Part shown: positions 59,119-64,000 of the stretch, one piece after another
Position numbering within the stretch: position 1 is the first letter of the stretch
How the letters are laid out: every line of letters begins with the position of its first letter
NCBI RefSeq assembly: GCF_014699135.1
Contig: NZ_JACOFT010000001.1
Span: 744,001-808,000 of the forward strand
Source: Cognatundibacterium aquatile
GTDB taxonomy: Bacteria; Pseudomonadota; Gammaproteobacteria; Burkholderiales; Burkholderiaceae_D
Direction of reading: 5' to 3'
DNA length: 64,000 bases
The notes under the pieces: model-generated
What the model saw: the letters and a program-made list of their open reading frames with translations, nothing else
Told to the model about the DNA's origin: nothing
Databases searched by the model: none
Made by a program: the position numbers and the translations under genes

Positions 59119-59517
59119 TTATTCCGGTTGCAGATAAAACGCGTCCGGTAATTGTGCGCCGGCGGTGGTGGTTTTGATGTCGCCTTTGGTGTTGGTCAGC
59201 ACGACTTCGAGTTCCGGGCCGCCGAGTTCGATGATGACTTGTCGGCAGGCACCGCAAGGGGCGATCGGGCCGTCGGTGTCGCCGGTGACGGCGATTTGTT
59301 GAAAATCACCGGGGCGATAACCCGCGGCGACGGCGCTGAATAAGGCGGTGCGTTCGGCGCAGTTGCACAGGCCGTACGACGCGTTTTCCACATTGCAGCC
59401 GTGGAAAACTTTGCCATCTTTGGTCAGCACGGCCGCGCCGACTTTGAATTTGGAATACGGTGCATACGCGCGTTCGCGCGCCAGTTTGGCTTCAATGATC
59501 AGTTCTTGCATGTTCAT
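59119..59517 (-). CDS. cdd: Cytidine deaminase
   Basis: This 132-residue zinc enzyme deaminates cytidine and deoxycytidine to uridine forms. The zinc ligands are Cys53 in [10 protein letters not shown], with catalytic Glu55, and Cys88 and Cys91 in PCGACRQ. This is the short homotetrameric type with three cysteines. [11 protein letters not shown] binds the ribose. It is the last gene of the nucleoside salvage operon, 132 bp after the oxygenase gene. A terminator-like hairpin lies 15 bp upstream of its start. GGAAAA lies just before the ATG. Confidence 0.95.
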
Positions 59518-59532
59518 TTTTATTTTCCATTT

Positions 59533-59565
59533 AAAAAGGCACGCCGGTCAGCATGCCTTTTTTGT
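59533..59565. terminator. Terminator or attenuator hairpin just upstream of cdd
   Basis: AAAAAGGCA pairs with TGCCTTTTTT around a GC-rich 12-base apex. T-runs occur on both strands. On the operon strand it lies between the oxygenase gene and cdd, so it would limit read-through into cdd. Confidence 0.7.
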
Positions 59566-59649
59566 TTAAGTTTATTCCTGATATCTACTGCGCATATTTT
59601 CTGCCTTTCAGATCATTTATACCCTGAAAGGCGCAGCAGGTTTGGGAGA

Positions 59650-60489
59650 TTATTTTTTCACGCCCAGTTCGCGCAAACGTTCCTGCAGATAGCTGCCGGA
59701 CGTGTGACGTTCAGACAGCACGACGTCTGGACGCGGATGCAGGAACAGGGGCAGTGAAATGCGGGATTTCTTCGCTTCTTCGCCGGTCGGATTCAGTACG
59801 CGGTGAATCGTCGAAGGGTAATACCCTTGCGAGGCTTCATCGAGCATGTCACCGATATTAACGATCAGCATGCCGAAATCGCACGGCACATCATGCCAGG
59901 CATTGTCTTTGCCCAATACCTGCAAACCGGCCTGGGTAGCGGCTGGCAGCACGGTCAGCAGATTGATGTCGCCATGAGCCGCTGCCCGCACTGCATCCGG
60001 CTCTTCATCGCCCGTCAGCGGCGGATAGTGCAGCACGCGCAGCAGGGTCAGATCGCTGTCGGTGATCATGTCAGACAAGGGCATCGAATACTTGGCCTTG
60101 ATCTCTGCCGGTGTGTGATCTTCGACCCATTGCAGCAATTCAGTGGCGAGTTTGTTGCCGTGTTCGTAGTATTCCAGCGCAGCCTTGGAGACTTCGGATG
60201 GATATTGTCCCCACGGGTAGACATGGTAAAACTCTTTCAGATCGCGCTTGGCATAGCCTTTGGCGGTTTCGGAAATTTTCGGCGAAAAATAGCCGTCCAT
60301 TTTTTCCGTAAACGCGTATTTGTTTTTCGCATCGGTCTGGAAAAACTCGTACCATTCCTGATAAATAGTATTGAGCAGATTTTGCGATAAAGGATGATTG
60401 GTCAGTACGCCAAAGCCGGTGTTGTGCAGGCTTTCGGTGAATTTTCTTGCCGCATCCGGATCACGGTAATCAACTGGTTGTATCAACAT
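59650..60489 (-). CDS. 2-oxoglutarate/Fe(II) oxygenase, isopenicillin N synthase-like
   Basis: The 279-residue double-stranded beta-helix oxygenase binds iron with His172 and Asp174 in AAHGDINLLT and His229 in STIHRV. Arg243 in SRISLPLF would bind 2-oxoglutarate. The N-terminal part (GFGVLTNHPLSQNLL) is the usual DIOX_N domain. The substrate is unknown. The gene lies between a nucleoside hydrolase (11 bp upstream) and cytidine deaminase in a nucleoside-uptake operon. This points to a pyrimidine base or nucleoside, as for fungal thymine 7-hydroxylase, which belongs to the same superfamily. That assignment is inference. Confidence 0.88.
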   Translation of the reverse strand: MLIQPVDYRDPDAARKFTESLHNTGFGVLTNHPLSQNLLNTIYQEWYEFFQTDAKNKYAFTEKMDGYFSPKISETAKGYAKRDLKEFYHVYPWGQYPSEVSKAALEYYEHGNKLATELLQWVEDHTPAEIKAKYSMPLSDMITDSDLTLLRVLHYPPLTGDEEPDAVRAAAHGDINLLTVLPAATQAGLQVLGKDNAWHDVPCDFGMLIVNIGDMLDEASQGYYPSTIHRVLNPTGEEAKKSRISLPLFLHPRPDVVLSERHTSGSYLQERLRELGVKK

Positions 60490-60500
60490 GACGGTTCCCC

Positions 60501-61644: not shown

Positions 61645-61670
61645 GGACGACCGGCAGGTTTTATAGTCTT

Positions 61671-62642
61671 TTATCGTGACTTTACAAACGGCACGCCTAT
61701 CGCCTTCGGCGCGACGGATTTCGCCATCAGGCCCGCAAGAACGACGACGGTGACTACATACGGAATCATCTGTATCAATGATCCCGGTACTTTGCCCAAG
61801 CCAGGGAAGACCACGCCTTCGATCTGAACTTGCAGAGCAGTGAAAAAACCGAACATCAGGCAACCGAGCGCCGTTTGCAGTGGCCGCCAGTTACCGAACA
61901 CCAGCGCCGTCAGCGCCAGATAACCGTTACCGGCCGACATATCGCGCAGGAAAAAACCGCTTTGCACGATGGACAGATAAGCGCCGGAGAATGAGCACAA
62001 CACACCGGCACACAGCATCGCCATAAAACGGGTACGTTCGACATTGATGCCGGCCGCATCGGCCGCGTGCGGGTTTTCACCAACGGCGCGGAGACGCAGG
62101 CCGAAACGGCTGTGATACAAGACCCAGTGCACGAGCGGTATCAGGGCAAACGCCAGATACACCAGCGCGCTGTGACCACCGATCAGCTTGGTATAAAACC
62201 AGCCCAGAAATGGGATACCTGCCACCGCATCTGAACCCGGTAAAACGATATCAAACAGGCGGGCAGAACCGAGATCTGGCGTGCGTCCGCCCTGCATAAA
62301 GAAAAACTGGGCAAGCACAAAGGTCAGACCGCTGAGGGCAATATTCAACGCAATACCGGCTACCAGTTGATTACCTTTTTGCGTGATGCTGACAAAACCT
62401 TGCAACAAAGCGATGACAGCGGAAATGCCGATACCGGCGAGTATGCCGAACCACGGGTTTTGCGTCGCAAAGGCGACTGCTGCTGACACAAATGCCGCTG
62501 CCAGCATTTTGCCTTCGAGTGCCAGATCCACCACGCCGCTGCGTTCGGCAAACAGACCCGCCATCGCTGCAAACATTAATACCGGTGCATTACGGATGGT
62601 AGAGACCAGAATGCTGGAAAATTGAAAATCATCAAACATCAT
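61671..62642 (-). CDS. Nucleoside ABC transporter permease (NupC/YufQ type)
   Basis: The 323-residue inner-membrane permease belongs to the BMP-type (branched-chain-like) ABC family that imports nucleosides. About nine helices are visible. ATMAGLFAERSGVVDLALEGKML-like text near residue 27 (AGLFAERSGVVDLALEGKM) and RAVGENPHAADAAGINVER near residue 180 are the family signatures. Its start overlaps the other permease by four bases. The usual order for such systems is lipoprotein, ATPase, permease 1, permease 2, which fits here apart from the unseen binding protein. Confidence 0.92.
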   Translation of the reverse strand: MMFDDFQFSSILVSTIRNAPVLMFAAMAGLFAERSGVVDLALEGKMLAAAFVSAAVAFATQNPWFGILAGIGISAVIALLQGFVSITQKGNQLVAGIALNIALSGLTFVLAQFFFMQGGRTPDLGSARLFDIVLPGSDAVAGIPFLGWFYTKLIGGHSALVYLAFALIPLVHWVLYHSRFGLRLRAVGENPHAADAAGINVERTRFMAMLCAGVLCSFSGAYLSIVQSGFFLRDMSAGNGYLALTALVFGNWRPLQTALGCLMFGFFTALQVQIEGVVFPGLGKVPGSLIQMIPYVVTVVVLAGLMAKSVAPKAIGVPFVKSR

Positions 62643-63721
62643 TTTTCCTTACGTTTGAGCAGGGCGGATAACGCCGGGGCATACAGATTTTCCATCGCAC
62701 CGCAAAACAGAATGATCAGGCCCTGAATGAAAATAAAAGTTTCGGTCGGAATATTTGGTTTTTCCAGCGACAGATCAAAACCACCTTGGATCAGCGCACC
62801 GAACAGTATCGACGACAGCAAAATACCTATCGGATGCTGACGCCCCATCAATGCCACGGCGATACCGATAAAGCCTGCGCCTGCGGGGAAATTCAAGCCC
62901 AGATAATGGGTTGATCCCATGACGGAATTGACCGATGCCAGACCGGCGAGTGCACCGGAAATCATCATCGCAATCATGATGGTTTTGCTGATGGAAATGC
63001 CCGCATAGTGCGCTGCGTGCTGGTTCAGACCGGTAGCGCGCAGTTGGTAACCCCAGGTTGTGCGCCACACAGCAATGCCGTAAATGACCAATGCCAGCAA
63101 GGCCATGATGAAGCTGATATTCAGCGGTGTTTCACCCAGCACAGGCAGGATGCCATTCAGCTTAGGCAGCCATGCGCTATCGGCAAAGACGCGGCTGGCG
63201 GTGTTTTGTTCACCGGCAGGAATCAGAAAGCTGACGATGATGTAGTTCATCAGGCTGGCCGCAATGAAATTGAACATGATGGTCGTTACCACCACATGGC
63301 TGCCGCGTTTTGCCTGCAGATAACCGGGTAAAAAAGCCCATGCCGCGCCGAAGATTGCGCTGCCGGCAATCGCCAGCGGAATCAACAGCCATGCCGGTAA
63401 GCTGGCATCAAAAGCGAGCAGCACCAGTGTCAGCCCGAGACCGCCCAGATACATCTGACCTTCGCTGCCGATATTGAATAAACCTGCCTGCATCGCAATT
63501 GACACCGACAGACCGGTGAAGATAAATGTGGCGGCGTAGAACAGGGTGTAGCCCAGTCCTTCAGGATTGAAAACGGCAGCATTCAGCAGTATGCCCAGCG
63601 ACTCCAGCGGGCTTTCACCCAGCAGATAAATCACACCGGCTGCCACCAGCAGGGCGGATAGCAAGTTCAGTAAAGGCAGGGCAAAGGCGGTGGCCCAGCG
63701 GGGAAGATCGGCTTGATTCAT
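62639..63721 (-). CDS. Nucleoside ABC transporter permease (NupB/YufP type)
   Basis: This 360-residue membrane protein pairs with the downstream permease. It has about nine to ten helices. LFNIGSEGQMYLGGLG near residue 86 and LRATGLNQHAAHYAGIS near 233 are the two conserved cytoplasmic or EAA-like segments of this family. AAWAFLPGYLQAKRGSHVVVTTIMFNF is also typical. It ends in overlap with the second permease. The ATPase gene precedes it by 65 bp, a gap containing imperfect CGCTT repeats. Confidence 0.92.
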   Translation of the reverse strand: MNQADLPRWATAFALPLLNLLSALLVAAGVIYLLGESPLESLGILLNAAVFNPEGLGYTLFYAATFIFTGLSVSIAMQAGLFNIGSEGQMYLGGLGLTLVLLAFDASLPAWLLIPLAIAGSAIFGAAWAFLPGYLQAKRGSHVVVTTIMFNFIAASLMNYIIVSFLIPAGEQNTASRVFADSAWLPKLNGILPVLGETPLNISFIMALLALVIYGIAVWRTTWGYQLRATGLNQHAAHYAGISISKTIMIAMMISGALAGLASVNSVMGSTHYLGLNFPAGAGFIGIAVALMGRQHPIGILLSSILFGALIQGGFDLSLEKPNIPTETFIFIQGLIILFCGAMENLYAPALSALLKRKEK

Positions 63722-63786
63722 ACGTGGTTCGTCGCTTGTTTGTTCGCTTATTTCGCTTATGTTTGCTTTGTATTCCGGCTGCTTGC

Positions 63787-64000
63787 TTAGTGCTTGTGTA
63801 ATCCACCCATCAGTAGGCCGATGCGGGTCGCATCAAATTCTTCTACTTTCAGCTCGCCAGTGATACAGCCACCCGACATCACCAGTATGCGGTCAGCCAG
63901 GGCGCGGACTTCTTCCAACTCCACAGACACTAACAGTATGGCGACACCGGCATCGCGCATCGCCAGCAGGCGCGCGTGCAGACTTTCTATGGTGCCGATA
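63787..64000 (-). CDS. Nucleoside ABC transporter ATP-binding protein (3' part)
   Basis: The gene enters from the right edge; only the last 71 codons are in the window. The visible end reads IESLHARLLAMRDAG, then VSVELEEVRALADRILVMSGG, the switch-region helix and D-loop-distal strand of ABC ATPases. In the duplicated NupA/YufO-type ATPase this corresponds to the second nucleotide-binding domain. It ends at TAA 63787-63789, followed by the two permease genes. Confidence 0.85.
   Translation of the reverse strand, partial: IGTIESLHARLLAMRDAGVAILLVSVELEEVRALADRILVMSGGCITGELKVEEFDATRIGLLMGGLHKH

Follow-up and report, generated by a model that had tools for sequence, protein, structure and literature searches.

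A stretch of 64,000 nucleotides from Cognatundibacterium aquatile (hereafter the window) ends in a run of genes for nucleoside uptake and breakdown that includes a 2-oxoglutarate (2OG)/Fe(II) oxygenase, which raises the question of what such an oxygenase would do there. We tentatively read the run as an operon for scavenging the nucleosides of RNA, in which the oxygenase would oxidise a modified pyrimidine nucleoside or its freed base, most probably dihydrouridine, yielding uridine or uracil; this is a possible rather than a probable reading. We infer the substrate to be a nucleoside or a base. Dihydrouridine is our first candidate, followed by 2'-O-demethylation or 2'-hydroxylation and, in third place, thymine oxidation; taken alone, the assignment to dihydrouridine is unlikely to be correct. 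The case is predicted to be of a known kind, a 2OG oxygenase of free nucleosides or bases.

The initial annotation had placed importer, hydrolase, oxygenase and deaminase genes in one direction at this end of the window and had read them as a nucleoside salvage operon. All four are found there, on the minus strand, and the family matches listed below support a nucleoside-scavenging operon that continues past the end of the window.

59119..59517, minus strand: cytidine deaminase (CDA), the final gene of the run (PF00383; TIGR01354 at 145.5 bits, cut-off 113.65)
59533..59562, minus strand: terminator-like hairpin with a T-rich 3' arm, between the oxygenase and CDA genes (-18 kcal/mol, z -2.69)
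59650..60489, minus strand: 2OG-Fe(II) oxygenase of 279 amino acids (PF03171 at 63.4 bits, cut-off 23; PF14226 at 41.7 bits, cut-off 27.3)
60501..61493, minus strand: inosine-uridine preferring nucleoside hydrolase (NH; PF01156 at 291.9 bits, cut-off 34.2)
61671..62642, minus strand: ABC importer permease 2 (PF02653)
62639..63721, minus strand: ABC importer permease 1 (PF02653)
63787..64000, minus strand: 3' end of the importer ATPase gene (whole gene 63787-65316, or L002:6288-7817)
L002:7909-8988, beyond the window end, minus strand: Bmp/PnrA binding protein (PF02608)
L002:9098-10027, beyond the window end, minus strand: ribokinase (RbsK; TIGR02152 at 357.8 bits, cut-off 299.65)
L002:10575-11693, beyond the window end, divergent to the operon: PfkB kinase (PfkB at 146.1 bits)
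L002:11678-12598, beyond the window end, divergent to the operon: PF04227 protein, pseudouridine-type (439.9 bits)

Read along the minus strand, the order is thus ribokinase, PnrA/Bmp binding protein, ATPase, two permeases, NH, oxygenase and CDA. Of the importer, the window includes both permease genes and the last part of the ATPase gene; the remainder lies past position 64000. The NH gene lies 11 bp upstream of the oxygenase gene, and its product falls below the cut-off of each of the four NCBIfam equivalogs listed for it. The hairpin between the oxygenase and CDA genes, which was found by folding and is missing from a consensus terminator scan, suggests that the CDA gene may be partly separate from the upstream run. 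A further hairpin, a strong one of 10 pairs with a T tail (L002:7866-7891, minus strand), sits between the binding-protein and ATPase genes of the importer and fits attenuated expression of what lies downstream. The best NCBIfam matches of the divergent PfkB kinase are a sugar kinase and a pseudouridine kinase, both below cut-off (130.9 bits against 540 for the pseudouridine kinase model NF007355); by family and adjacency, the kinase and the PF04227 protein (L002:10575-12598) form a pseudouridine kinase/glycosidase pair. The oxygenase is the sole PF03171 match in its genome at E 1e-3, and its own matches place the genome in Undibacterium: the closest named protein, from U. rivi, is 100% identical over 279 residues, followed by those of U. 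oligocarboniphilum (99%) and U. griseum (98%).

In a scan of close relatives with one genome per species, the oxygenase was found at 33 loci, and at 32 of them NH is its immediate neighbour, which argues that the operon is not a chance grouping. The linkage of oxygenase, hydrolase and importer is kept in other genomes. In 27 Undibacterium-type loci the importer genes come before NH and the oxygenase within one run, to the extent that the contigs cover it. Four loci from Curvibacter and Rhodoferax have the order RbsK-NH-oxygenase, divergent from genes for a kinase (32-33% identity), a PF04227-type protein and an importer, and NH also adjoins the oxygenase in a metagenome-assembled genome of Pseudomonadales (L035). 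In loci L022-L026, four further genes come after the oxygenase; they encode a TonB receptor, a 5'-nucleotidase, an S1/P1 nuclease and an adenosine deaminase according to Pfam matches in L022 and to cluster membership in the others. A uridine-kinase family gene (Udk) heads the cluster in L022-L025, and the contig of L026 ends before that place. This gene set reads as one for taking up RNA or nucleotides and breaking them down.

Since NH, the ribokinase, Udk, the pseudouridine-type pair and the nuclease and nucleotidase act on ribonucleosides by family, the oxygenase would most simply convert one RNA nucleoside that the other enzymes of the cluster cannot use into an ordinary one. The ABC importer would bring nucleosides into the cell, NH would split the ribonucleosides, and the ribokinase would capture the freed ribose, while CDA would turn cytidine into uridine and the divergent kinase and PF04227 protein would handle pseudouridine. 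Hydroxylation of dihydrouridine at C6 would give uridine hydrate, which dehydrates to uridine. The oxygenase could carry out this hydroxylation, with 2-oxoglutarate turned into succinate, and the hydrate would then lose water. We know of no dihydrouridine oxidase family.

The oxygenase is present at E <= 1e-40 in 24/300 genomes of an order-level sample and in 39/369 genomes of a class-level sample, the class being Gammaproteobacteria in GTDB. Beyond the close relatives, we inspected 20 order-level loci, 6 from a plasmid collection and 40 others (one belonging to the order sample, the other 39 found in 37 genomes of the class sample), several of them cut by contig ends. Open reading frames were picked by length and amino-acid make-up, and profiles of ten nucleoside-related families were searched up to three genes away from the oxygenase. 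A usable gene call was obtained for 65 loci; the oxygenase call of L079 was lost, and a separate look at that locus found no matching neighbour. Four loci had nucleoside neighbours. L127 has the order RbsK-NH-oxygenase with a 4-bp overlap of the last two genes, and in L124 an importer precedes the oxygenase with a gap of 12 bp; both oxygenases are approximately 60% identical to that of the window. The two genomes belong to one family (f125), in which the oxygenase adjoins a hydrolase-kinase pair in one genome and an importer in the other, and the operon of Undibacterium contains each of these. The order in L123 is Udk-NupC-oxygenase, with a last gap of 169 bp, and in L145 a guanine-deaminase-like gene is next to the oxygenase. 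Elsewhere in the family, L135 holds a tandem pair of oxygenases, 44% and 55% identical to that of the window, and genome G391 holds an oxygenase fragment.

We inferred an oxygenase phylogeny of 76 rows in which the label "NH or importer adjacent" was set against all other rows, leaving out L035b, L159 and L160; it was rebuilt because an earlier tree of 79 rows had compared the nucleoside label with other labelled groups only. The rows from Undibacterium, Curvibacter and Rhodoferax formed one clade (100/100). L124 and L127 clustered together (100/98), and the group around them (97/81) also held unlinked rows from Photobacterium, Salinivibrio and others; L035 fell elsewhere, on a long branch of uncertain placement. 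Three changes of the label are needed on this tree, two of them forced by well-supported branches, and a single change was found in 0/200 bootstrap trees. A phylogeny of NH (31 rows) also required three changes of linkage, two of them forced, and in it the NH of L127 was sister to an NH encoded elsewhere in the L124 genome and apart from the Undibacterium NHs. From both trees, a repeated union of the oxygenase with nucleoside genes is likely and is the simplest reading.

Dihydrouridine is placed first among the substrates because of the linkage to dusA. In the class sample, 8/39 oxygenase-bearing genomes have dusA at most 6 kb away from the oxygenase gene, and five have it directly upstream; among the 40 other loci dusA is found within three genes in six and within five genes in two more. 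The five loci with dusA directly upstream (L136, L141, L143, L145 and L149) represent three families with otherwise different surroundings, and the two genes overlap by 16 bp in L141 and by 10 bp in L145, with hand-chosen start codons. A DusA-type gene (E <= 1e-75) is present in 38/39 genomes with the oxygenase and in 26/41 without it, the latter being a hand-spaced subset of 330; against that background, the co-occurrence is weak support. It is conceivable, if rather doubtful, that the whole family is a bacterial dihydrouridine-to-uridine oxygenase, which would hydroxylate free dihydrouridine or dihydrouracil at C6, with dehydration to follow, and so recycle the dihydrouridine of RNA. With equal reserve, the RNA-scavenging lineages would have joined the oxygenase to import, hydrolysis and ribose capture, and other lineages would have kept the dusA neighbour.

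The HxD...H...R set that the initial annotation had called complete is indeed so: the RxLxY, HxD, H and RxS motifs are all intact, with H172 and D174 (of H172-G-D174), H229 and R243 invariant in 98/98 tabulated rows and S245 present in 92/98, the others having Thr or Ala. The nearest structure of known function to the predicted fold is thymine-7-hydroxylase (T7H), which is also the top characterised match of the family profile. The residues of T7H that bind 2OG are R190, L192, Y194, L223, V273, R286 and S288, and those named as contacting the substrate are Arg190, Phe292, Tyr217, Asn87, Glu122 and Asn294 (PMC4787775). The 2OG set is matched throughout in a HMMER alignment (R151, L153, Y155, L181, V231, R243 and S245). 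Two of the substrate contacts are kept, Arg190 as R151 and Phe292 as F249, and this base-stacking Phe is present in 98/98 rows, which fits a nucleoside or base as substrate. The position of the Asn87 contact, position 64, holds a residue other than Gln in 35/35 NH- or importer-linked rows, which lie at three places in the tree, and Gln in 51/61 other rows. These counts omit L123 and L145 (both Gln, with other nucleoside neighbours), L035b (Asn), and L159 and L160 (both Gln), and the contrast is post hoc, 50 positions having been inspected.

Several results weigh against the proposed role in RNA-nucleoside scavenging. None of the ten nucleoside-related families was found within three genes of the oxygenase in 61 of the 65 further loci (neighbours in 0/19 order-level, 0/6 plasmid and 4/40 other loci), and certain search profiles had been seeded with the four positive loci themselves. 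Absence of the linkage elsewhere was among the things that the initial annotation had named as speaking against its reading; this was seen only in part, since the linkage is kept in other genomes, and in view of the 61 loci it is recurrent rather than general. The neighbours of the oxygenase can also be incidental, as other families place it beside mnmA (tRNA 2-thiouridine synthase, preceding it in L082-L084 and L086 of one family; named for L082, the rest by eye), purM-purN (preceding it in three loci of another family, by eye), cysE and, by eye, metG and recQ. In L082-L084 and L086 the oxygenase is followed by an O-methyltransferase-like gene, identified by eye and with no NCBIfam match. The three label changes may represent one old union with many later losses. 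Residue 64 is Gln in the members next to dusA but Met, Tyr, His or Phe in the rows linked to NH or an importer, so that the substrate may differ between the two groups. Finally, the enrichment of NH in genomes with the oxygenase (12/39 against 18/330; odds ratio 7.7) is no greater than that of a glycerol-kinase control (26/39 against 71/330; odds ratio 7.3); the co-occurrence is therefore not specific and reflects richer genomes, at least in part.

These results also bear on other explanations. It is unlikely, though worth weighing, that the substrate is unrelated to nucleosides and that chance brought the gene, a member of an old and largely solitary family, into nucleoside clusters. The 61 unlinked loci outside the close-relative set and the variation of neighbours from family to family are consistent with this, as is the similarity of linked and other members at most of the tabulated pocket positions, to which position 64 is the clearest exception. 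Chance alone, however, would place the oxygenase next to one given gene in fewer than one genome per thousand (a rough estimate for two neighbours and about 3,500 genes), and NH or an importer adjoins it at three places in the tree, besides the adjacency to Udk-NupC and to dusA, several of these with short gaps or overlaps. The initial annotation had pointed to T7H, and the relation holds at the level of fold and profile. That the oxygenase is a bacterial counterpart, oxidising the 5-methyl group of thymine or 5-methyluridine stepwise, is rather improbable, because the analogy finds no support at the level of the substrate: Tyr217, Asn87, Glu122 and Asn294 are replaced by Ile175, Met64, His89 and His251, of which Ile175 (95/98 rows) and His251 (98/98) are conserved as such. 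The Z lead of T7H over gibberellin oxidase and SpoC is just 1.4, with a tie with the orphan structure 3oox. Among the operon proteins, to which this search was confined, there is no match to PF04909, the family of isoorotate decarboxylase.

The oxygenase could instead act on the sugar, removing the 2'-O-methyl group of free ribonucleosides as formaldehyde or adding a 2'-hydroxyl to deoxyribonucleosides, with a plain ribonucleoside usable by NH, ribokinase or Udk as the product; we think this improbable, yet not to be neglected. DeoC and PYNP_C were searched for in the window genome and are absent, and a deoxyribonucleoside 2'-hydroxylase in place of DeoC was therefore kept among the rivals. 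The prediction that the oxygenase anticorrelates with DeoC failed, as DeoC is commoner in genomes with the oxygenase (22/39 against 25/330; odds ratio 15.8). Within the class sample, DeoC is found in 0/4 genomes where the oxygenase adjoins NH, an importer or Udk-NupC and in 22/35 others with the oxygenase (p 0.03), a comparison chosen after seeing the data. The precedent for sugar-level oxidation, FJS/PHYHD1, belongs to PF05721, which is not among the domains of the window oxygenase (PF03171 and PF14226 are its sole Pfam matches at E 1e-3), and some hydrolases are reported to cleave 2'-O-methyl nucleosides directly (PMC12709175). A purine-base hydroxylase in place of xanthine dehydrogenase is very improbable. 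Its setting is met at L035, where the oxygenase and NH lie beside genes for a phosphoribosyltransferase, a xanthine/uracil-type permease, a urate-oxidase N-domain protein and an amidohydrolase, and at L145 with its adjoining guanine-deaminase-like gene, and at these two loci only; in L035, moreover, a second oxygenase, 35% identical, runs with the purine genes. A xanthine dehydrogenase substitute was dropped as a lead because the window genome itself encodes a xanthine-dehydrogenase-like pair, next to a guanine-deaminase-like gene. The region in question (L041:2954-11018) contains this pair (PF20256 match) and, by eye, the guanine-deaminase-like gene and a TonB-receptor-like gene. The second oxygenase of L035 (L035:9795-10781, PF03171) is a candidate for a 2OG enzyme that acts in the degradation of purines; it stands beside the urate-oxidase N-domain protein and a guanine-deaminase-like amidohydrolase, with the permease gene in the same neighbourhood.

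At lower window coordinates than these genes, a beta-CASP metallo-beta-lactamase is encoded at 56419-57861 on the minus strand, with 397 bits to the type VII CRISPR Cas14 model and 273 bits to aCPSF1, both far below cut-off. A 226-residue open reading frame at 58291-58971 on the plus strand has no Pfam or NCBIfam match at E 1e-3.

How does the proposed scavenging operon compare with known systems? Its NH, kinase and PF04227 parts are shared with the RihA/RihC/UriH and PsuK-PsuG loci; unlike these, the Undibacterium NH and divergent kinase fall below the cut-off of all the NCBIfam equivalogs listed for them. Neither kind of locus is known to us to carry an oxygenase. A pyrimidine deoxyribonucleoside 2'-hydroxylase (EC 1.14.11.3) occurs in Rhodotorula and would be a fungal precedent for an oxygenase that feeds a nucleosidase. 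T7H of Neurospora crassa (PDB 5c3p-5c3s), which oxidises thymine to 5-hydroxymethyl-, 5-formyl- and 5-carboxyuracil, is 25% identical to the window oxygenase and differs from it in the four substrate contacts named above. AdaV, CtNTH and 7w5s are C2' halogenases that act on nucleotides (PMC11186838). Among the matches listed by a literature search that was thin on subscription journals, there was no paper on this oxygenase family. One member, SO_2589 of Shewanella oneidensis, has a structural-genomics entry whose title states no function (PDB 3on7).

Pseudouridine aside, little is known of what becomes of modified nucleosides once RNA decays. For free 2'-O-methyl nucleosides, a paper of December 2025 presented a 2OG route as previously unidentified, and the accessible part of that paper describes FJS/PHYHD1 as 2OG oxygenases that act on free nucleosides in the turnover of modified nucleosides (PMC12709175). 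The oxygenase family studied here would be like them in this respect and unlike them in belonging to a Pfam family other than PF05721 and in its association with an NH operon, of which that part of the paper reports none. It would be a second oxygenase family, tied by gene order to nucleoside import, nucleoside hydrolysis and tRNA dihydrouridine synthesis, and these ties give a short list of candidate substrates for a family whose solved structure, 3on7, has had no explanation.

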